From an uncultured Chthonomonas sp. (GTDB lineage Bacteria > Armatimonadota > Chthonomonadetes > Chthonomonadales > Chthonomonadaceae), in contig CAIONQ010000003.1 of NCBI GenBank assembly GCA_903859705.1, forward strand, positions 1-59,977: 59,977 nt of DNA, read 5' to 3'. The translations under genes were made by a program, and so were the position numbers. How positions within the stretch are numbered: the first letter of the stretch is position 1; every line of letters begins with the position of its first letter. The notes beneath the pieces were generated by a model. It was not told the DNA's origin and made no database searches. It saw only the letters and a program-made list of their open reading frames with translations. Of the stretch, positions 12,006-58,030 are shown piece after piece.

Positions 12006-12135
12006 TCACAGCAGGTTTGATCGCGCTCCGATGTCCACCACAGGCTGGCGTTAAGGTAGAATTGAAAATCTACTGCCACTTGCCGTTTACTTTGTGATGT
12101 GTGCTTTGCCACTGGCTGCACACCGGGGATTGAAC

Positions 12136-13662
12136 ATGCGTTGTTTCTTCCAGAACCTTACCTCTGTATTGGCTGTGTTTACCGTTCTTGTCGGTGGCCA
12201 GGCAGTAACTACTGCCCAGTCTACAGACTTTCAGCTGACACTGCTGCATACCAACGATACGCACGGTCACCTACTTCCCTATAGCTATCCCGAGCATTTT
12301 AGCCCGGGAGCACCAGAAGGAATGCTAGTATCGCGGAGGGATATAGGTGGCGCAGCGCGTCGCTCAACACTTGTAAAGAAAGTTAGGGCCGAAAAAGGGC
12401 ACGATACACTGTTGATCGATTCCGGGGATATATGCGACGGAACGCCATTTTCCACGGAGTACCATGGAAGCGCCGACGTGGCTGTTATGAACACCATAGG
12501 CTACGATATCGCCTGCCCCGGCAACCACGAATACAACAATACCCTTGCACAGGTTAAGACAATGGCGGCGGCGGCCAGATTCCAGTTGATCTCGGCAAAT
12601 TCGACTGTTAGGGCCGATGGCAAGCTCCTTTACACACCGTACATTATCCGCAATATCCAGGGAACCAGGGTTGCCTTCTTTGGCCTTATGACCTACGATG
12701 CAAGAACTTACCCGGCAGCCAAAACAGAAGTGCAGATGGAAGAGCCAATTGCAGTTGCGAAACAGCTCGTTCCCGAACTGCGCAAACAGGCAGATTTTGT
12801 GGTTGCGGTTACACACATTGGAGTAGATGAAGATGTCAAGCTCGCCGCTGAGGTGCCTGGAATAGATGTGATAGTTGGTGGGCACACACACACTCTGCTG
12901 CCGCACCCGTTATTTGTTCCGCGCCCATTGGATACTTCTGATCACTCAGTACATGGAACCGTAATTGTGCAAGACTTTCAATGGGCAGGCACTCTTGGCA
13001 GACTTGATCTGAAGATTCATCATGAGAAAGGCCATGCAGCTACAGTTGCCACCTACAGCGGCAAGTTGCTGCCAATAACAGCTGCAGTGCCTGAAGATAA
13101 GCAGGTTGCGGACGTCATAAAGAAATACTGGGACCCTATCTCTGCAAAATATGCACGCAAAATTGGGGAAACAGCCGATGACATCACAACCATAGGAGAT
13201 GATCTCTGCGAATACAACATCGTTGCCGATGCTGTGAAAGAGAAGACCGGTGCCGACTTTGTAATGGAAAACCTTGGTGGCGTGCGAGCACCCTACGTGC
13301 GAGGCAGCATAACGTACGGGGATGCCATTACTGCCGATCCATTCGGAAACAAAATCGTTACATTCAAGGCTTCTGGAGTCCAGATAAAGAAGATGCTGCT
13401 GGTGTTTCAACCAGCCGTAGCGGGGTTGGCATACACTATAGATCACGGCAAGCTGACGCGTGCCGAAATTGCAGGCCAGCCAATTGAAGATTCCAGGACC
13501 TACTCGGGTGCTACTAACACTTATCTGGCACAAACGCTTCTGAAAGACATCCCACTCAAAGTCACTACGGAAAATGCCCGTCTGGACGCTTCCATCCAAT
13601 ACATCACAAGGCATAGCCCCGTGCATGCTGCATACGATGGCAGACGCAAAATATCCGAGTAG
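12136..13662 (+). CDS. secreted 5'-nucleotidase / bifunctional UDP-sugar hydrolase family metallophosphoesterase
   Basis: 508 residues from the ATG at 12136 (GGGGAT upstream; it begins a clean signal peptide ending VTTAQS). The metallophosphoesterase motifs appear in order: LLHTNDTHGHLLP, IDSGDICDGT, PGNHEYNN, AVTHIGVDED and VGGHTHTLL, which hold the dinuclear metal ligands. The C-terminal 5'-nucleotidase domain starts around residue 330 and contains NLGGVRAPYVRGSITYGDA and DPFGNKIVTF. Likely periplasmic release of phosphate and nucleosides from nucleotides. Organisation is UshA-like. It reads divergently from proA and is probably a single-gene unit. Confidence 0.9.
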   Translation: MRCFFQNLTSVLAVFTVLVGGQAVTTAQSTDFQLTLLHTNDTHGHLLPYSYPEHFSPGAPEGMLVSRRDIGGAARRSTLVKKVRAEKGHDTLLIDSGDICDGTPFSTEYHGSADVAVMNTIGYDIACPGNHEYNNTLAQVKTMAAAARFQLISANSTVRADGKLLYTPYIIRNIQGTRVAFFGLMTYDARTYPAAKTEVQMEEPIAVAKQLVPELRKQADFVVAVTHIGVDEDVKLAAEVPGIDVIVGGHTHTLLPHPLFVPRPLDTSDHSVHGTVIVQDFQWAGTLGRLDLKIHHEKGHAATVATYSGKLLPITAAVPEDKQVADVIKKYWDPISAKYARKIGETADDITTIGDDLCEYNIVADAVKEKTGADFVMENLGGVRAPYVRGSITYGDAITADPFGNKIVTFKASGVQIKKMLLVFQPAVAGLAYTIDHGKLTRAEIAGQPIEDSRTYSGATNTYLAQTLLKDIPLKVTTENARLDASIQYITRHSPVHAAYDGRRKISE

Positions 13663-13928: not shown

Positions 13929-15098
13929 ATGGTGCGAAACTCGCTGAGTTTACGAAGGGCGCGAGCCTTTACGATGATTGAGCTGGCTGTAACGCTGGCT
14001 CTGATTGCGGCTCTGGCCGCTGTGCTTTTCCCTGTGATCGCCAGCGGCAAGTCTATGCGCGATCGCGGATGCCTTAGCAATCACCACCAGTTAGTGCGCG
14101 CGGTCTCAATGTATGTCGAGGATTTCGGCGATGGTGAGCTGACTAATAAGGTTCAGTTGGATCCGTACATCGGCGCGAACCTGGTAGATTGCCCCAACAA
14201 TTTTTCTCCCGCATTCAAGCACACCCAGAAGAAGGATGGATGCGGGGATGATGATGCCCGCCATGGCGACGAAGACCACGGCCGAGGCTGCGGTGGCGAT
14301 GGCGAGAATGGCGGTGGACATAACGGTGCAGGGCCGTCTGGTGGTGGTGCCGCATCTACTGCTAACATGACCAGCCATGGTGGCTCCGTTCTTACCAGCA
14401 CCGCTACCGCTGCTATATTTTGGGGTAAGAGCTGGGCAAGCACCTCGTACGTTGCAGACAAGGTTTCCGGCCTGGACCTGTGGTATGCAGGATTCGGTGG
14501 CAGCCGTTATGCAGCGACATGTAACGAGTACAAGGGCTCTAACGGGCAGGTAACTTCTACGTCGACCTACCTCGGTCACTACATCGATACATCTGCTGCC
14601 GCAACGGGCCAGCCAAGCACTGCTGCCATTCAGGCCGAAGTATGTAAGATGATCCCGGCGGCCAAGCTGTATACCAACGGCTACTATGCAGTTTATACGG
14701 ATACTCCCCGTGGCACTGCAGGTTTCTGCGCATGGCACAGCTGGGGCACATGCTCGGGTATCCCGGTACAGTTCGCCTTCTTCTTCAGCCTTGATGGCGA
14801 TGCAGGATGTAATCCAAGCGATGCATCTGGCCTGCACTCACAGGGCCTTGCGGCACTTGCCAATGTAACTGCCCATGAGCTTTGCGAAGCACGCACAGAT
14901 GCTCGTGGTTCCGGTTGGTACGATTCTGCTGGTGCAGAGAACGGCGACAAGTGTGCATGGACCTATGGTTCTCCACTGGTATCATTCCCAAACGGTACCC
15001 AGTGGAAACTGCAGGGTGAGTGGTCTAACTCGGCATACTCTGCCGGCACAGGCTATAAGAACTCTGCTGGCCTCAAGGGTTGCCTTTCAGGGCTATAA
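13929..15098 (+). CDS. fusion of prepilin-type N-terminus and EXORDIUM/PHI-1-like domain
   Basis: 389 residues. Residues 1-35 are a class III prepilin signal: a basic leader, then AFTMIELAVTLALIAALAAVLFP, with Ala instead of the usual Gly before the cleavage Phe. Residues 36-100 resemble a short pseudopilin (CLSNHHQLVRAVSMYVEDFGDG). Residues 102-142 are a Gly/Asp/His-rich linker. Residues 147-389 match, from memory, bacterial EXORDIUM-like proteins: MTSHGGSV, IFWGKSW, DLWYAGFGGSRY, HELCEARTD (316-324), GAENGDKCAWTYGSP, TQWKLQGEWSN. HExxE might bind metal, but activity is unproven. A cell-surface domain appears to be delivered on a pilin-like anchor. AGGA lies about 10 nt before the ATG; a strong terminator follows at 15134. 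Confidence 0.8.
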   Translation: MVRNSLSLRRARAFTMIELAVTLALIAALAAVLFPVIASGKSMRDRGCLSNHHQLVRAVSMYVEDFGDGELTNKVQLDPYIGANLVDCPNNFSPAFKHTQKKDGCGDDDARHGDEDHGRGCGGDGENGGGHNGAGPSGGGAASTANMTSHGGSVLTSTATAAIFWGKSWASTSYVADKVSGLDLWYAGFGGSRYAATCNEYKGSNGQVTSTSTYLGHYIDTSAAATGQPSTAAIQAEVCKMIPAAKLYTNGYYAVYTDTPRGTAGFCAWHSWGTCSGIPVQFAFFFSLDGDAGCNPSDASGLHSQGLAALANVTAHELCEARTDARGSGWYDSAGAENGDKCAWTYGSPLVSFPNGTQWKLQGEWSNSAYSAGTGYKNSAGLKGCLSGL

Positions 15099-15133: not shown

Positions 15134-15169
15134 AAGGGGACCATCTGACAATTGTCAGATGGTCCCCTT
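15134..15169. terminator. bidirectional intrinsic terminator
   Basis: An unbroken palindrome of 36 nt centred between 15151 and 15152 (arms AAGGGGACCATCTGACAA and complement). It is flanked by A-rich sequence on the left and TTCTTAATTT on the right, midway between the convergent fusion gene and the VWA gene, so it can serve both. Confidence 0.85.
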
Positions 15170-15192: not shown

Positions 15193-16590
15193 CTATATTC
15201 GGTACCTATTTTGAACAGTGGCGGTGTCCAGCTCTTCAACCATTTCCGGCTTTGGATGCCTGTCCAGCAGTGGCGAGTCAATGTCAATACCAAAATCAAG
15301 TGCGGTAAAGCTTGCAGATAGCTTCTCAAGCTCAGGGTTGGGTTCTGGCACTACCATTACCGTATGAACTTTTACACGTGCTTTCATCAGGGTGAGGCGT
15401 GTACTTTCAAGCATCTCTGCTCGCCCATCGGTTACCAGCAAAATTTCCGCGTCTGGCCCTCCATCGGAGCGCAATGCCTCGATATCTTGAGTGGCAATAG
15501 TCAGGGCATCGTTAACGTCTGTTGCGCTGCCGTTGAAGTTTGTCTTCATGATGGTGCTCAGCAACTCATCTTTTTGTTGAATGGTGGTTGCAATCAATGG
15601 GTGATCCAACCGCTCTGGCCACATCTGTTCCTTTTGTGCGTATCGTCGGAACAGGTAGCGCGTTCCTGTTTGCCCCATATTGCATCGCATTGCAGCGGTA
15701 ATTACCGCCATTGCTACCACAGCTCCTGATCCCCGCATAGATGCGCTGAAATCCAATAAGATGTAGAGTAACTGCCCACCTTTACCAGAACCGCTCTCAC
15801 TCTCAATTGGGATAGGAACTTGCTGGCGGCGCACCGTTTCAACTCTGCGGATCTCTTTTCTGAAATCCAGCCTTAGTTTATGCGGGTTGCGTATGGGAAC
15901 CATGATCTCGCCGCGCGTCCACTTCTCTACAATAACCCGTGGCGGAAGCACCTGATCCAGCAAGCGAGCCTTCCATACTTCCTCGAGGCCTTTTGCTGGC
16001 CGCATTGTGTGTGAGGCAAGCGGGCGATCCTTCCAGGAATCATCGGGAAAAAAAAGTTCTGCTTCTTCCCAGACATGCACTTCTTGTTCGCGATATAGCA
16101 CTTCCTGGCTGTGGCTTTCGGAGCCAGATTCGCCGCCATCGAGTACCCTATTTAGGTGCATCCACGGCGGATTTTCGCGTAGCAACCTATACATCAGGCG
16201 CTCAACCTGGGCTGGATCACCAAAAAAGTCGCTCTCTGGCAAGCGGAATTGGGATGCGAATTCTGCGAGATTTTTGAAATCTCCGAGATCCCCATGCCGG
16301 TTCATCATCTTTTCAATCTGGGCATCCGGCGGGGGAGTATCGCTTAGACCTTCGGCAGTGAGGAAAATGTGCCACGGGCGTGGTTTGCGGCGACGATGCT
16401 TACCGCTGCCCTTTAAAATAAGCGCGAGAGCGGCAATAACGGCGTCAAAGTACTCCTTCAGGTTTTGAAGGAAGCCCTTATTGTCTGCCTGCTGGAAAGC
16501 GATCGTGCCACCTGAATGCAGCGATTTTTCAGCCGAATTGGCCGTATCCTGAGGCAGGGCATCCTGTTTGTCTGCGCCCTGCGGATCCAT
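15193..16590 (-). CDS. von Willebrand factor A domain protein (MoxR partner)
   Basis: 465 residues. The N-terminal 270 residues are charged and not recognised. The VWA domain begins near 272 (QLLYILLDFSASMRGSG); the metal-adhesion motif DxSxS is Asp280-Ser282-Ser284, with NFNGSATDVNDAL supplying the Thr and LLVTDGRAE the later Asp. No signal peptide is present, so it acts in the cytoplasm. Its ATG overlaps the stop of the MoxR-type ATPase by one base (TAATG), implying translational coupling. MoxR-VWA pairs generally act as a chaperone or remodelling system for metal-enzyme maturation or stress; the client here is unknown, since no third partner gene is linked. Confidence 0.85.
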   Translation of the reverse strand: MDPQGADKQDALPQDTANSAEKSLHSGGTIAFQQADNKGFLQNLKEYFDAVIAALALILKGSGKHRRRKPRPWHIFLTAEGLSDTPPPDAQIEKMMNRHGDLGDFKNLAEFASQFRLPESDFFGDPAQVERLMYRLLRENPPWMHLNRVLDGGESGSESHSQEVLYREQEVHVWEEAELFFPDDSWKDRPLASHTMRPAKGLEEVWKARLLDQVLPPRVIVEKWTRGEIMVPIRNPHKLRLDFRKEIRRVETVRRQQVPIPIESESGSGKGGQLLYILLDFSASMRGSGAVVAMAVITAAMRCNMGQTGTRYLFRRYAQKEQMWPERLDHPLIATTIQQKDELLSTIMKTNFNGSATDVNDALTIATQDIEALRSDGGPDAEILLVTDGRAEMLESTRLTLMKARVKVHTVMVVPEPNPELEKLSASFTALDFGIDIDSPLLDRHPKPEMVEELDTATVQNRYRI

Positions 16591-17777
16591 TATTCTTCGT
16601 CCGAAATCTTAGAAATGGCCTGACGCAGCACTTCAACCAGATGCCCGGCCCCTGCACTGCCACGCACCGAAGCAAGGTGAGCCAGCAACTCTCGTCTCGC
16701 TGAGAATATAGTTGGGCGGCCTGGCAATCGAAGTCGGAACTCACCTGGCCCGCGGCGGCGATTGTGCTGATACTGGAGTACCTGCTGGGCTAGGTCTCCC
16801 AGCGCATCGTATAGTTCTAGATCTTCCCTCAGAATCTTTTTGGGGACTATCTGGTCCAGAACGTCATTCAGAATGGCATGTGCTGCAATACCATCAGCAT
16901 CGTCACCAAGTGGCAACGCATAGGGCAAATAGCGGCGAATGTGCCCATATTCGGCGCGCTGGCGGCCCTCTAGCACGGCTCCGGCACAGATTACATCCAG
17001 AAAGAGATTATCTCGGCGTAGGTCTGAAGAGAACAAGCCGGAACGGCCCAGATGCACATCTTGCTGGCATCTACGATGAAACTCACCAGATATCCAGCTC
17101 TCAACGAGCAGTACTCCCGGTGGCACCTCCATGCGCTCACGCTGGCCGCATAGTTCCTTTACCTGATCCATGTCTACAAGGGGCACAGATGGAGCGTGGC
17201 CATGCGTGTGCAGATATACCTGGCCCGTTTGAAAACGGCCCCAGCTAGAACTCACCTCTGGAGGTGTAAAGCGGAATGCAATGCGGCTCCATACAGCCTT
17301 CCACTCTTCACCATGCGGTGCCTGGTTAGCAGTGAGCACGGCTGTGTGGAGTGAGGCCGGCAATGGGTCCTGATCTTTTACCTCAAACAGACGTTCATAC
17401 AGGATTGTGTTTAGCGACCGGGCCAGTGCAACCGGTCCGTCGGAAAACTCTTCCAGGCAGGCAAGATCGCAGTTGAGGATGCCATTCTCGGTGTTGTACA
17501 CCTGTTTACCCTGCTCAAGATAGGTTTGAGGGATAGGGGCACCTACTAGATGATCAGGCATGGTGTATGCTGTAATCTGGGTTCGAAATATCCTGGCACC
17601 GCGAACGGCGCCGAGGAACATGCGAGAAGGATAAGATTTGCCTCGGCCTGGCCTGCCAACAAGCAGTACATGCTGACCGGTGAGGAGTGCGAGCTTGAAC
17701 TGCTCAACTCCATCATCGTAGCCAATCAGGTGCTCTTTGAGGGTATCCAGGGAGGTGGAAAAACTGATGTCACTCAA
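16590..17777 (-). CDS. MoxR-family AAA+ ATPase
   Basis: 395 residues from a TTG at 17777, supported by GGAG about 9 nt upstream. Walker A is GRPGRGKS at residues 41-48; the Walker B position reads LACLEEFSDGP, with Glu-Glu where MoxR proteins usually have Asp-Glu. LTANQAPHGEEW matches the sensor 1 region and RFTPP lies near the Arg-finger region. The C-terminus GRPTIFSARRELLAHLASVRGSA resembles the MoxR lid domain. Predicted ATP-driven remodelling with the VWA protein encoded next. A good promoter lies at 17937-17965, giving a leader of about 150 nt. Confidence 0.85.
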   Translation of the reverse strand: MSDISFSTSLDTLKEHLIGYDDGVEQFKLALLTGQHVLLVGRPGRGKSYPSRMFLGAVRGARIFRTQITAYTMPDHLVGAPIPQTYLEQGKQVYNTENGILNCDLACLEEFSDGPVALARSLNTILYERLFEVKDQDPLPASLHTAVLTANQAPHGEEWKAVWSRIAFRFTPPEVSSSWGRFQTGQVYLHTHGHAPSVPLVDMDQVKELCGQRERMEVPPGVLLVESWISGEFHRRCQQDVHLGRSGLFSSDLRRDNLFLDVICAGAVLEGRQRAEYGHIRRYLPYALPLGDDADGIAAHAILNDVLDQIVPKKILREDLELYDALGDLAQQVLQYQHNRRRGPGEFRLRLPGRPTIFSARRELLAHLASVRGSAGAGHLVEVLRQAISKISDEE

Positions 17778-33070: not shown

Positions 33071-33355
33071 CTACTGTTTACCCCTCCTTGCGCGCGGTAG
33101 TACCTGCTTCTCACCCTGTGTGCCAAAAACCATATTGCTTCCGGGCACTGCAGTGTTGCTGCTTGTTGTTACAGCCTGGCTTCCACGTGCAACTGGTGCC
33201 GTTGTAGAGGCCGTTGGTGGTGCGCTAACGGAGCTCCGATCTGGCAGCCCTGTGCTGCTGTGGCCGCATCCCGCCATCACAATCAGCAAGGCTGCTGGCG
33301 GTAGTGCCCGGAGAATCTGCAGGCTGGATCTAACCAGGGAACAGTGCTTACTCAT
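33071..33355 (-). CDS. small lipoprotein
   Basis: 94 residues from the ATG at 33355, inside the end of the pseudopilin gene (overlap 8 nt). A lipobox is present: LLIVMAGC, with the acylated Cys near residue 29. The mature part is short, Ser/Thr/Pro-rich and basic at the end (PRARRGKQ), with no domain. Overlap with the pseudopilin gene suggests coupled translation. Confidence 0.7.
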
Positions 33356-34097
33356 TGCTCGGCAACCCATCGATGTTATGCATTCCCTGGTTGTTCACAC
33401 TATCTGCGGGCAGGCTTTTATCGAGTGTAAATGCAAAGCGCAACCACTTTGCATGGCCATCCAAAAACGCATAGTTGTCTCCAGATGTGTGCCTTCCAAT
33501 ATTGGGCGGGTCCAGTATCTGGGCATCAGTGTCTGGATCGCCAATCTTGTATCCAGATCCATCCAGGTAACCGCGCTCCCAATTACCATCCGGTGCTGAT
33601 GCCCACGGGTGGTAATCGAAGAACGCTATTCCGGAGTGCCGTTCGGCCATCATAATCTGCTCGGAAGGGCGAGAGAACATTCCGATAAACGCTCCATGCG
33701 CAAAAAAACCGTTGATTAGATAATCTGTGCGGTATGTTTTCCAGTCTGCCAGCGTAACCGGGTACGGAAACAGAGTAGGTGTATCGCTTACCGATGGATC
33801 GCGGAAGATCTGGTCGTTCTTGATGTAGGGCCGTAGCGGCTGATACCAGGCGTAGAGATTGGCAATTGTCTCCGGTGGCTCCAGATCGTGATGGGTTCTG
33901 CACGTCCTCTCATCCCAATCCTGTGTGTACATTAGAATCGCCAAACCAATTTGGCGAACGTTAGATAGGTCCGCAATGCTTCGTGCCTTTTCCCGAGCTT
34001 GCGCAAAAACAGGAAAAAGAATCGCTGCGAGTATCGCTATTATCGCGATAACTACAAGAAGCTCGATCAGTGTAAAGCCACGCTTAATGGCATGCAT
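33348..34097 (-). CDS. pseudopilin, DUF1559-like H-X9-DG protein
   Basis: 249 residues. The class III prepilin signal is [19 protein letters not shown], cleaved after the Gly. [12 protein letters not shown] follows, a motif I associate with Armatimonadota. The C-terminal H-X9-DG signature is [16 protein letters not shown] (about residues 216-231). These proteins are numerous in Planctomycetes and Armatimonadota and are thought to be type II secretion-like minor pilins or surface anchors. A hairpin lies 52 nt upstream of the ATG. The lipoprotein gene overlaps the 3' end. Confidence 0.9.
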
Positions 34098-53339: not shown

Positions 53340-53942
53340 CTAACGCGCTTCGCCCCTGGCAAAAACGTAGCCAGTGGTGTTTAATCGAACTCCCTTTATC
53401 CCGTACTTTTTTGCCAGCGGCCAGAATCGATCCGCTATAGCCCTGGGAGTTCTGTCCTCCATGCCGTAGCTACAACAACTTAATAGGAAATATCCCGTCG
53501 CGAGATGCCAGCGATTATCCGGAGACTCCGTCACATAAATCATCATATGGTAGGGGGAGCGAGGCCCGCCCCCCTTACCAGATGATAACCTGTATGCCAA
53601 TTGATCGACCGGATAGCTCTGGACGCGTTCGACGGACAATGGCCCCGGTGCGCCAACGTGATGCAACGTCTCTTCTAGAATTCCAAGTATCCCCTGCTTT
53701 GTGAGATGGAGTTTATCAACTTCCTCAGGCGCAGTGAGTGCAATCAGCGTGTCAACGTCACCTTTTGCAAGCGCGTCTGCCGTTAATTGCGCAACCTCAT
53801 CTGCCGTAGGGGGGCGAAATTTGAACCACCAGAGAAGGCTCAGAAGCAGAACTGGTGCAATCACAATTACGATTAGTCTGAGGCGCCCAGATGGACGTGC
53901 AGATGGACTTTTCGTGGCGCCTGCTCTCATTGAATTGCTCAC
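53340..53942 (-). CDS. N-terminally membrane-anchored protein of unknown function
   Basis: 200 residues from a GTG at 53942 that overlaps the stop of the preceding gene (GTGA), so translation is coupled. One membrane helix, RLIVIVIAPVLLLSLLWWF (about residues 22-40), is followed by a soluble domain: ADEVAQLTADALAKGDVDTLIALTAPEEVDKLHL resembles the start of NTF2/SnoaL-like or DUF4878-type domains, then DNRWHLATGYFLLSCCS. No firm family. It is the last gene of the repeat-bounded cluster. Confidence 0.7.
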   Translation of the reverse strand: MSNSMRAGATKSPSARPSGRLRLIVIVIAPVLLLSLLWWFKFRPPTADEVAQLTADALAKGDVDTLIALTAPEEVDKLHLTKQGILGILEETLHHVGAPGPLSVERVQSYPVDQLAYRLSSGKGGGPRSPYHMMIYVTESPDNRWHLATGYFLLSCCSYGMEDRTPRAIADRFWPLAKKYGIKGVRLNTTGYVFARGEAR

Positions 53943-54352
53943 GAACCCTGGTTAGGCAATGCGCAAAGGCCATCTTGCATATCAAGGTTGCACGGTACTG
54001 GCATTCCTGACCAAAGGCACTCGCCATCAAACAAATTTGCAGCCCCAGTATTGGTTGTAGTGACGGTACATGGGCAGAACCCCAAACCGTCACTAGTCTG
54101 GCCCCATGTCTGTATGGTTTGCATGTACTCGCAGCATCCCGTGTCTGTAAAGGGAGCGCATAGTTGCTTACACCAATTAGTGGTAGTGTAACCTCCTGGG
54201 ATGCAAGAAATGTTAGATAGGCAACCACCTACATTTGAATAGTTGTAACAATTTGTCGTTTGCTGGGCCAGCACGACCATCGGCAACAGCAGGGCAAGCG
54301 AAATCACTAAAGATAGACTGGCCAGTGTATTGGTGAGATTCGGAAGTTTCAT
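53939..54352 (-). CDS. Cys-rich secreted protein
   Basis: 137 residues from ATG at 54352 (GAGGAGA 5 nt upstream; the 13 extra upstream codons are arginine-rich and disrupt the signal). The signal peptide is SLSLVISLALLLPMVVLAQ. The mature part of about 105 residues holds at least a dozen Cys (GGCLSNISCIPGG, WCKQLCAPFTDTGCCEY, GFCPCTV, DGECLWSGMPVPCNLD), so a compact disulfide-bonded surface protein is likely. No family recognised. It lies directly after the pseudopilin gene and may be a pilin-tip or matrix component. Confidence 0.72.
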   Translation of the reverse strand: MKLPNLTNTLASLSLVISLALLLPMVVLAQQTTNCYNYSNVGGCLSNISCIPGGYTTTNWCKQLCAPFTDTGCCEYMQTIQTWGQTSDGLGFCPCTVTTTNTGAANLFDGECLWSGMPVPCNLDMQDGLCALPNQGS

Positions 54353-54391
54353 GTGTCTCCTCATGGGTGGTACTCGTCGAAGCATAATCAT

Positions 54392-54982
54392 CTACTCTTG
54401 CATACTGGCTGCGTGAACAGGAACCTGCCAGAACTGAACCTGCTGGTTGATCCTGAGGGTCTGAACCCGCTTTTTAGCCCATGACGGCTGCTTTTCAAAG
54501 TCCGTTCTGTCATTGTGCATCTCGCACACAACCAGGGGAAGCCTCGGACCGAGATGCGAAACCATTTCAGGATAGTGTGGATCATACGTCTCAGAAAGCA
54601 TCGCAGGTGTGGCATACGTAACCGCCTTTGGCGACACGCTGTGTGCCTGCCCGGGCATATAATGCGTGCTCGGACACCGAGTCACCGGCGATCCAAAAAG
54701 CTTGTAAGACTTCAGAAAAGCAATCCACGGCGGTCCGAGCGGCGGCAGCCCAATCTGTGCATGCGTCATTGGCGTCCCGACGCTGGGCTCAACACCATCC
54801 CAGTCCTGCATATACATAGACAGGGCTTTGCCCCACTGATGTAAGTTTGCCGCGCACACAGATTGTCTGGACTTTTCTCGGGCCGGTCCTAGCACACCGA
54901 ACAGCAAAGCGCACAGTGCGCCAATTATCGCAAGTACAAGCAAAATCTCTAAGATCGTAAACCCACGCCGTCGGTTGCTCAC
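54392..54982 (-). CDS. pseudopilin (type II secretion-like prepilin)
   Basis: 196 residues from GTG at 54982 with AAGGGG upstream. The prepilin signal is RRRGFTILEILLVLAIIGAL, cleaved after Gly7. REKSRQSVCAANLHQWGKALSMYMQDWDG matches the pseudopilin region of DUF1559-like proteins, but no C-terminal H-X9-DG motif is present, unlike the copy at 33348-34097. The leading gene upstream is the YARHG protein; the Cys-rich gene follows 39 nt later. Confidence 0.85.
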   Translation of the reverse strand: MSNRRRGFTILEILLVLAIIGALCALLFGVLGPAREKSRQSVCAANLHQWGKALSMYMQDWDGVEPSVGTPMTHAQIGLPPLGPPWIAFLKSYKLFGSPVTRCPSTHYMPGQAHSVSPKAVTYATPAMLSETYDPHYPEMVSHLGPRLPLVVCEMHNDRTDFEKQPSWAKKRVQTLRINQQVQFWQVPVHAASMQE

Positions 54983-55206: not shown

Positions 55207-56667
55207 TTACTTTACACTCATCAGCAGCCCGTGCTGTTTCTGGTAATCCAGAATGAACTGCGTGTTAATCCGTTCCGTAGGTGAAAGCGTTTTGTAGACC
55301 TCGGCCATTTTAGGTTCTGTACCCTGGTACCACGTTTGTTGATTGTAGTAGTTCTGTAGCTTTGCAGAGGTAAATCTGTATCCGTGCCTCGCGTACGGCT
55401 CATTGCGCATGAGGGTGAGTTCCCAGGGTGTGTGTCCCTTTAGGTCGGCTTCATGAAGAATTCGCCCATCCCCCGGAGGTGGCACGGGCGGGCTTGCGGG
55501 TGAAGTCGCAGATGCGCTTTCAGTGGCCATGTTGATATCCTTTGACGCATACGATGGCGCAGATTTCTGTCTTGTCTTCTCCTCGGTATCCAAGTCTTTG
55601 CCGGGTTCGACTGTAGGTTCTGATTCAACCTGTGAGGACTTATTGGCATTTGTTAGTGGTACAGTCTCGGCCGCCACAGGCCTCATTGGGGCGCTATAGA
55701 TCGCTGCTTTCGGTACAGAGCTTGGACTGTGGTGCATTTGAGTGCCAAGAATAAAGGTAAGTGCCGTAAGCCCAATCACCGAAGCAGCAACCTGTGATAG
55801 CTTATTCCAATCTGAAGTTCCTTCTGGTTTGCCGGTTGGAACAGTAGAGCCATTTATCCGAGCGATCAGTAGGTTACTGAGCCTCTTTTTGAGGATCCGC
55901 CGGCTGCCAGTTACTGATACGAAAGCCCCGATCGCATATGCCATGGCAAACAGCACAATATTTGCGGTCTGATTATTGGATGCTGAGGTCCATGCACTGA
56001 TTGTGAGTATTACGAGGCCGTACCACAGCGCCGGTGCAACCGCCAGAAACTGAATATTCCACGGCTTAAGATAGGTATCCAATAATTCTGACGTGACGAC
56101 ATCCCGGGGTTCGCCACGCTTCGATTTGACCTGTTGAATCGTTGCACTGCTCAGGTCTTCCGCTGAACAAGCATCTGCCAGCCTTGACGATAGTACGTAT
56201 GCGGTGATGGCAGTGATACCTAACATCGCTCCCCATACAAGCGCTGTACCAACAACAAACGCCAACGCGAGGACAATGATCCCGATTGTTGCGACAGTGA
56301 CAATCAGTATGGCCCACCAGGGCAACTCAAGCCTTTCGCCGCGTTCGACTTCGTTTGGCCACGGGAAAAGTAGCACCATCGCTGCGCCTGACGCTACGGA
56401 GTTCGATCCCTTTACGCGACCAATCTTATCAAAACCATAATAAGATACCGAGCCGTTGGCCCGACATACTCCAATATGGTTTCCAGATTCGTTAAAGACG
56501 TGACCCTCTGCGTTTACTCTTCCAACGACTGTGCCATCGGAGTCGTAGACAGTTCCATCGCCTCTAATAGAGCCGATAGGAACCAGACGTCTGCCCTCGT
56601 AAGCCAAGACCTGGCCGTCGTCATCAATTTGGCCGACCTCCTGGCCATCAATATACAAAACTACCAT
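55207..56667 (-). CDS. YARHG-domain membrane protein
   Basis: 486 residues. Residues 1-100 hold short beta repeats with a G-x-V/I...DG pattern (DGQEVGQIDDDGQVLA, GDGTVYDSDGTVVGRVNAEGHV). Three to five membrane segments lie between about 115 and 310 (WWAILIVTVATIGIIVLALAF, LGITAITAYVL, YGLVILTISAW, IVLFAMAYAIGAFVSV, VIGLTALTFILGT). A Ser/Pro/Glu-rich stalk leads to the C-terminal YARHG domain (LTLMRNEPYARHGYRFTS), an extracellular domain linked with cell-wall or peptidase-associated proteins. GAGGTGA lies 6 nt before the ATG. It leads the cluster after the 46-residue peptide. Confidence 0.85.
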   Translation of the reverse strand: MVVLYIDGQEVGQIDDDGQVLAYEGRRLVPIGSIRGDGTVYDSDGTVVGRVNAEGHVFNESGNHIGVCRANGSVSYYGFDKIGRVKGSNSVASGAAMVLLFPWPNEVERGERLELPWWAILIVTVATIGIIVLALAFVVGTALVWGAMLGITAITAYVLSSRLADACSAEDLSSATIQQVKSKRGEPRDVVTSELLDTYLKPWNIQFLAVAPALWYGLVILTISAWTSASNNQTANIVLFAMAYAIGAFVSVTGSRRILKKRLSNLLIARINGSTVPTGKPEGTSDWNKLSQVAASVIGLTALTFILGTQMHHSPSSVPKAAIYSAPMRPVAAETVPLTNANKSSQVESEPTVEPGKDLDTEEKTRQKSAPSYASKDINMATESASATSPASPPVPPPGDGRILHEADLKGHTPWELTLMRNEPYARHGYRFTSAKLQNYYNQQTWYQGTEPKMAEVYKTLSPTERINTQFILDYQKQHGLLMSVK

Positions 56668-56678
56668 GTGTATTCACC

Positions 56679-56819
56679 TCACAATGATGCGGCTTTTGCC
56701 GAGCATGCATCCACTATTAATTGACCGAGTAACTGGACAGGGTCAATTAAGACAACACTGATTGCCGTAATCAATCCAACACTTTGTGCCAGGGCACCAC
56801 CTAATAGGTGGCGCGGCAT
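56679..56819 (-). CDS. small membrane peptide, 46 residues
   Basis: ATG at 56819, preceded by CGGAG 5 nt upstream; stop at 56679, 11 nt before the YARHG start. The product has one long hydrophobic stretch (LLGGALAQSVGLITAISVVL) flanked by MPRHL and VDACSAKAASL. No family recognised. The spacing and ribosome site suggest it is the first gene of the YARHG operon. The same frame is open further upstream without a better start. Confidence 0.5.
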   Translation of the reverse strand: MPRHLLGGALAQSVGLITAISVVLIDPVQLLGQLIVDACSAKAASL

Positions 56820-56972
56820 CTTATCTCCGAATGCATCGTCATATCTCACGCGGAATCGGCTAACTGAGAACCGATTGACAGGATAAAGAGATACTGGCGT
56901 GAGCTTCAAATTATGCTCTAAGCTCAATACCACAGGCTAACCTGATTTTAAAGGCGTAGGAAACCTAATAAA

Positions 56973-57105
56973 TTAGCGAACCTGTCTTGCGCTAATTTTG
57001 ATGAATTCACCTGTAGCCGCCCCCTTGAGGTCACAAAGAGTTACATCGGCACGCTCGGAGTAATATCGCCCGACATCGATTACGTTGCCGAAGGATGGCT
57101 GCAAC
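56973..57105 (-). pseudogene. possible decayed gene fragment
   Basis: A minus-strand frame ends at TAA (56973-56975) and reads GNVIDVGRYYSERADVTLCD then LKGAATGEFIKISARQVR, a protein-like composition. It is cut upstream by TAG; another frame just upstream reads YDWTLADIVAAILRQ, so a frameshift may have broken one gene. No family is recognised and chance cannot be excluded. Confidence 0.25.
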
Positions 57106-57370
57106 AATATCGGCTAACGTCCAATCATATTCGCTACATAGCGGTTCTGTCAAGTGGAAACATATAGAATTACAATGGCAAACCAGTCGCAAACAGATAT
57201 TCGTTGCAGGTGCCAGTAATGGATCCCAAATTGGGCAGGATATAACTAGCGTTACTATGGCATTGGCAACCAGGATCTGACGGTTTCATCTACCCCTGCC
57301 GTTCTTCCCACTGGCCATAGACATTTGGATACAATGCCAGCTGAGTGAGTAACCTTCTCCCCCATCCCGC

Positions 57371-57410
57371 TGAGCTTGCGAACAAGCGGCGATCTGCCGC
57401 TAAAACACTG
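57371..57410 (-). repeat. R3-like module, inverted
   Basis: The reverse complement reads CAGTGTTTTAGCGGCAGATC, then GCCGCTTGTTCGCAAGCTCA, joining two parts of the R3 unit found at 58322-58588, with an internal deletion. Confidence 0.6.
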
Positions 57411-57500
57411 ACAATACTATCAAGCCCGCCCGCACTGTAGTCCCGAGCTTGCGAGTGGCGTATGACAGCGCCGGAAGTCACTGGCTATTAACAAGAGGAG
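57388..57500 (+). repeat. right copy of diverged direct repeat DR-a
   Basis: Counterpart of 52626-52740, same orientation and order relative to the R2 copy that follows. Confidence 0.6.
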
Positions 57501-57732
57501 TGTTCTCTGTTTCGCGCGAGGAATGAGCGGTGAAGCAATAGAGCAGTGTTGGGGGTTAGGCAGAAAAAAGGGTGCACCTCGTAGTGCTTTGGCCACATCG
57601 AAAACTACCATCCCCCTCCACGATCCTCCCGCCCGGGGAGGAATTAAATGCACGCCTGGCAGTAGGATGCTGATTACGGGTTGGGAGCTTTTGATTTAGC
57701 GCGCGAAGATCGCAAAGCTATCATATGGTACC

Positions 57733-57862
57733 GTCGGATGAAAGCTGTGCTTAGGCGGAAAGTAGCTTGAAAGGAACCAGTTCCCTCTTGGATGCATCTC
57801 TTCGCGTTCTTTGCATTTCCTTAGCGCGACACATGCATTTCAGGCCGTGGCTGTGCTTGAGC
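57733..57862 (+). repeat. R2 repeat, right flanking copy (DR-b)
   Basis: About 130 bp, matches 52801-52931: GTCGGATGAAAGCTGTGCTT start, TTCGCGTTCTTTGCATTTCC core. A partial second R2 unit continues to 57930. Confidence 0.8.
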
Positions 57863-57931
57863 CACAGGCAGCTTGACCAGTACCAGTTCCCACTTCGGTG
57901 CATCTCCTTCGCGCAACGCAGAAGCGGATCT

Positions 57932-58030
57932 TCATGAAAAGCAATATCTACCGCGCTACGCTTAAGAGAACCGGCGGGGCCAGGAGTCGGGGGGCGGGAG
58001 TCAGGGACAATGCGCCGCCTGCCGGATGCC
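57932..58030 (-). repeat. R1 repeat, inverted copy
   Basis: Reads in reverse orientation to the R1 copies at 52 kb: ACCGCGCTACGCTT, GGCGGGGCCAGGAGTCGG and CGCCGCCTGCCGG are complements of R1 tail and body. Confidence 0.7.

Follow-up and report, generated by a model that had tools for sequence, protein, structure and literature searches.

Pilins in which a conserved N-terminal stem carries a domain not peculiar to pili have been described as modular pilins, a class that comprises more than 1,200 proteins in 264 architectures; S74 and M26 peptidases are among the predicted modules (PMC8179133). One of them, PilB of Streptococcus sanguinis, has a tested function, that of an adhesin (PMC8179133). 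In the phylum Armatimonadota, Fimbriimonas ginsengisoli encodes 79 pseudopilin genes, 65 of them with pfam07963, and carries fimbriae as well (PMC4072686). The EXORDIUM family is known from a different context; a paper of 2009 knew of one bacterial EXO-like protein (PMC2661892), and we found no biochemical activity of the family in the literature searched.

We analyzed a gene from a stretch of 59,977 nucleotides (the window) of the genome of an uncultured Chthonomonas sp., an armatimonad, in which a prepilin N-terminus is fused to a PHI-1/EXORDIUM-like domain. The protein shares with PilB and PilC of S. sanguinis a class III prepilin stem, a linker and a C-terminal domain that is not specific to pilus biology; it differs from the modular pilins in its cargo, which is not among the architectures described in the excerpted survey text (PMC8179133). 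The fusion is a variant of the modular pilin, a class already known, and its EXORDIUM-type cargo is new among the literature searched: by title and abstract, and with partial coverage of the literature, we found no pilin-EXORDIUM or pilin-metalloprotease fusion of this kind.

Organization of the fused gene

The open reading frame is intact, begins with ATG and encodes 389 amino acids. Its parts and surroundings are as follows.

13929..15098, plus strand: the complete gene fusion of 389 codons and a stop, running from the prepilin stem through the linker to the PHI-1/EXORDIUM-like domain
13929..13967, plus strand: basic leader peptide MVRNSLSLRRARA, residues 1-13, from the sequence and the N_methyl match
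13968..14198, plus strand: pilin stem up to the PY..CP motif (LDPYIGANLVDCP), from the full-length model and the stem model
14199..14366, plus strand: Gly/Asp/His-rich linker, residues 91-146, predicted to be disordered
14367..15095, plus strand: PHI-1/EXORDIUM-like domain, residues 147-389, with four conserved Cys, from the family alignment; predicted metzincin-type fold
14874..14888, plus strand: HELCE, the invariant HExxE, residues 316-320, on the helix equivalent in element order to the active-site helix of metzincins
14937..14957, plus strand: ENGDKCA, with invariant E337, D340, C342 and A343 in the family alignment
15134..15169, plus strand: terminator-like hairpin of 16 pairs, 3' of the fused gene, from the sequence
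12094-13662, plus strand: 5'-nucleotidase-like gene, the 5' neighbour
15193-17777, minus strand: convergent gene pair, the 3' neighbour

The open reading frames flanking the fused gene include neither a pilus operon nor an adjoining pilus gene. Elsewhere in the window lie two further prepilin (DUF1559-like) genes, at 33348-34097 and 54392-54982, both on the minus strand, the second being followed on the same strand by two open reading frames without Pfam matches (53340-54391, minus).

The N-terminus is that of a class III prepilin

An earlier note, made from the sequence, had read the first 100 residues as a class III prepilin signal with a short pilin stem, followed by a Gly/Asp/His-rich linker, and our analysis bears this out. 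The N_methyl model PF07963 (cut-off 21.2 bits) scores 22.8 bits when the first 100 residues are scanned and 24.6 bits in the genome search, falling just below the cut-off with the full protein (20.2 bits), and TIGR02532 lies above its cut-off in both the first 100 residues and the full protein. The sequence combines a basic leader, a hydrophobic alpha1 helix, Ala at -1 and Glu at +5, with cleavage predicted between RRARA and FTMIE, before F14; Ala or Gly at -1 is common among the pilins of this genome. When 27 other pilins from the source genome were made into a stem model, the window protein scored 62.6 bits with it; unfused relatives reached no more than 1.8 bits and 1000 shuffled sequences no more than 9.0 bits. 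Two further fused copies, a paralogue on contig C99 of the same genome and a copy in genome G016 (both described below), score 89.6 and 78.2 bits. Among the three canonical stems, that of the window protein has diverged furthest.

One common stem pattern, with ....MY.QDYDE, recurs in most of the 30 best N_methyl proteins of the source genome, and the PY..CP motif follows the stem in 16 of the 27 other pilins as well. In the window protein LDPYIGANLVDCP runs directly into the linker, which suggests that the head of the pilin has been exchanged. The full-length model places stem helices at residues 16-44 and 49-66, has pLDDT below 50 over residues 84-141 in the linker region, and reproduces the same C-terminal domain as the model of the domain by itself.

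The C-terminal domain belongs with EXORDIUM through its relatives

When the two halves were scanned separately against domain databases, the N-terminal half was recognized as N_methyl, and the C-terminal half could be assigned to EXORDIUM only via a family alignment. Residues 147-389 alone gave no match in Pfam, NCBIfam or PDB sequences, and PF04674 (curated cut-off 25 bits) had no match up to E 1 in the window protein or its domain, and none elsewhere in the source genome. Since Pfam has no match for the window protein by itself, the link holds only through relatives; the proposed match of residues 147-389 to EXORDIUM-like bacterial proteins thus stands by this route and not as a direct match. 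A collection scan yielded 274 relatives of the domain. The best 80 of the 274 come from Acidobacteriota, Burkholderiales, Actinomycetota, Myxococcota and others, with identities mostly up to 66% across the full domain. PF04674 is matched by 21 of the 47 family members in alignment A1 (best E 3.7e-37), comparison of the window-type with the EXORDIUM-type subfamily by hhalign gives E 2.3e-39 over 218 columns, and the A4 profile recovers the window protein at E 5.8e-31. One of the fused proteins from another family of the phylum, L091, itself scores 114.7 bits with PF04674, above the Pfam cut-off. Thirteen positions (domain numbering) are invariant in the 47 members: G20, Y55, C121, H124, H170, E171, E174, D178, W184, E191, D194, C196 and A197. 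The window domain can be aligned with bacterial PF04674 members across most of its length, but alone it scores below Pfam detection, and a pilin stem stands where the signal peptide would be. None of about 79 relatives from outside the phylum for which upstream sequence exists (from the best 80 of 274) has such a stem; their N-termini are ordinary signal peptides or other sequences, in line with the expectation that an ordinary signal peptide normally precedes these domains.

Phage records held no relatives of the domain and plasmid records one distant match. EXORDIUM-like proteins are also encoded by viral-classed IMG/VR contigs (L083-L086), two of these contigs being 129 and 185 kb long. Another architecture occurs in two Deltaproteobacteria MAGs (L061, L062), where segments resembling carboxypeptidase-regulatory repeats precede the domain.

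A predicted metzincin-type fold with an HExxE site

AlphaFold2, run on alignment A1, modelled the domain with a mean pLDDT of 96.6. The best Foldseek matches of this model are metalloproteases (E 4e-3 to 4e-2), the first being 6o38, which we take to be the secreted protease CpaA of Acinetobacter with its chaperone. After re-alignment of the structure matches, all 50 listed are of metzincin type (Z 8.1-9.9), the top one having Z 9.9 over 162 residues with an rmsd of 3.6 A and about 7% identity. In the model a strand, a helix, a strand, a helix and three strands are followed by a long helix (residues 159-177), which is the order found in the upper domain of metzincins, and the second half of that long helix carries the invariant H170-E171. 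Metzincins carry HExxH in the second half of their active-site helix. We thus assign the domain a predicted metzincin-type fold, resembling adamalysins, ADAM/ADAMTS proteins and CpaA in overall fold, element order and the His-Glu on the active-site helix. It differs from them in having an invariant HExxE instead of the zinc motif HExxHxxGxxH/D, with Glu replacing the second His, in the low identity and in the lack of a significant sequence match: hhalign against the metzincins of the phylum gave E 0.097, its sole short match aligning HE with HE, and the family profile found chance-level matches only among PDB sequences (MAT1, E 0.6). A structure search of BFVD returned nothing useful.

The model suggests a metal site of altered ligands. 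With its metzincin-like fold and the invariant His-Glu that its active-site helix retains, the domain most likely binds a metal, and its role would be that of a hydrolase tethered to the cell or of a binding module stabilised by the metal. A stronger version of the latter, in which the fold is catalytically dead and binds, for example, cell-wall sugars or proteins, making the protein an adhesin like the vWA and lectin pilins, is a tentative alternative whose chances we put only a little short of even. The missing second zinc His speaks for it, as do the existence of zincin families with conserved substituted motifs (PMC3650047) and the adhesin function of PilB (PMC8179133); however, in all 47 diverse members the His, both Glu, the Asp and the subsequent Glu and Asp do not vary, which seems to exceed the needs of a dead site. 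This alternative competes only with a hydrolase function of the domain, not with the modular-pilin architecture.

The fusion recurs within the phylum

The earlier note had advised looking for the same fusion in other Armatimonadota. Across 291 genomes of the phylum there are only five close members of the family, and all five have a pilin-type stem with Glu at +5. A second fused copy in the source genome, on contig C99, encodes 396 amino acids with a clearer prepilin N-terminus, its domain being 70% identical to that of the window. G016, a genome from a different genus of the family, has the fusion too, with a short linker. G030 and G163, genomes from two further families, each encode an EXORDIUM-type domain (L091 and L092) behind a decayed pilin stem in which, counted from +1, the Glu of +5 and the Pro of +22 stay in register. 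The stem model gives these 28.9 and 13.7 bits, the second value being weak, and Pro or Lys takes the place just ahead of the cut. As no Gly or Ala stands ahead of the cleavage point, both proteins may escape processing. Four weaker or partial matches complete the search of the 291 genomes; three, with L096 of the source genome (below) among them, have other architectures and the fourth, in G107, has E 8e-4.

Two observations concern individual loci. In the G016 copy (L087, frame from 1117 on the plus strand, G016:C27) a TAG interrupts the frame some 25 codons ahead of the natural end, from early decay or a sequencing error. The source genome also encodes a third, distant PHI-1/EXORDIUM-like protein (L096, G000:C135, about 928-2343, plus), which has an ordinary signal peptide and is extended at its C-terminus.

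In the phylogenetic tree the window copy and its C99 paralogue group together (support 90/94), and the G016 copy sits elsewhere on a long branch. The AU test does not reject a single clade for the three (p 0.589), which leaves room for a single origin; we accordingly did not retain three independent fusion origins, into which the tree as drawn would split them. L091 and L092 fall in the EXORDIUM-type clade behind a long branch with support 100/100, which disfavours the same fusion event for them and makes it likely that fusion happened twice or more, or that domains were exchanged later. The gene is absent from the one other genome of the genus that was searched, a patchy pattern such as would be expected for transfer from another phylum. 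Between window copy and C99 paralogue, dN is 0.22 and dS 1.46 for the domain, and dN 0.55 and dS 1.66 for the stem, the dS values being rough as they exceed 1. By these values both parts are under purifying selection, the domain more strongly than the stem.

Discussion

Our preferred reading of the gene product, with a probability of about 0.66, is a modular type IV pilin by which a secreted metzincin-like PHI-1/EXORDIUM domain is anchored or displayed. The gene would have arisen from a pilin of the stem type abundant in this genome, whose globular head gave way, just past the PY..CP motif, to a secreted PHI-1/EXORDIUM-like domain on a flexible linker. Prepilin peptidase would cut the leader, and the hydrophobic helix would anchor the protein in the inner membrane and permit its entry into a type IV filament or pseudopilus, with the domain exposed outside on its linker. 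Against this reading count the lack of a pilus gene next to the fused one, the divergence of its stem, the non-canonical HExxE, the modest Foldseek E of 4e-3, the non-significant sequence comparison with metzincins of the phylum, the residues ahead of the cut in L091 and L092, and the early stop in the G016 copy.

Display through the type II/IV pilus machinery, as the earlier note had suggested, is made plausible by the components encoded in the same genome, which include 68 prepilin (N_methyl) matches, two secretins, and a prepilin peptidase on contig C79 (L127, 1048-2124, minus) that scores 25.1 bits, just under the Pfam cut-off, has the usual sequence pattern and adjoins a pilin and a PilC/GspF gene; contigs C21, C104 and C95 encode further T2SSF proteins. 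The prepilin genes resemble the pseudopilin expansion of F. ginsengisoli in kind and number (79 there, 68 matches here), but the ordinary pilins of the source genome keep a head after stem and PY..CP, and that of the window protein is replaced. Near the prepilin peptidase and PilC/GspF gene (G000:C79, about 55756-57950, minus) there are also two open frames of prepilin type, 738 and 744 codons long, possibly large modular pilins.

The pilin-type N-terminus could instead serve as an export signal and inner-membrane anchor only, leaving the domain in the periplasm and outside any filament. Sixty-eight such N-termini seem more than one filament needs, the window gene has no pilus gene beside it and its product no pilin head, and L091 and L092 have lost the cleavage residue. 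The Glu at +5 of pilins matters for assembly and not for export, yet it is kept in every one of the fused members, and for export an ordinary signal peptide would suffice, as in the relatives from outside the phylum. On balance we regard a role confined to export and anchoring as rather unlikely, though it deserves to be taken seriously.

A bolder extension of the modular-pilin reading would see in EXORDIUM/PHI-1 a family of metzincin fold, active in its bacterial branch as an HExxE metallo-hydrolase and joined to type IV pilins on two or more occasions in this phylum, giving protease-bearing filaments; we consider this improbable as a whole. A link between EXORDIUM and metzincins is absent from the titles and abstracts in the part of the literature covered by our search.

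An assembly chimera or an annotation artefact merging two genes has practically nothing left to recommend it beyond the low-complexity linker, where misjoins can happen, as the same order and frame occur on two contigs of the source genome and in another genus, and base composition does not change abruptly at the joins (GC3 0.64, 0.50 and 0.54). Given its recurrence in the C99 paralogue and in sister genomes, the fusion is a real gene.

The fusion adds a type of cargo to the modular pilins, in a little-studied phylum with dozens of pilin genes. For the EXORDIUM family, the predicted metzincin-like fold, together with a conserved, altered metal motif, provides a structural lead.
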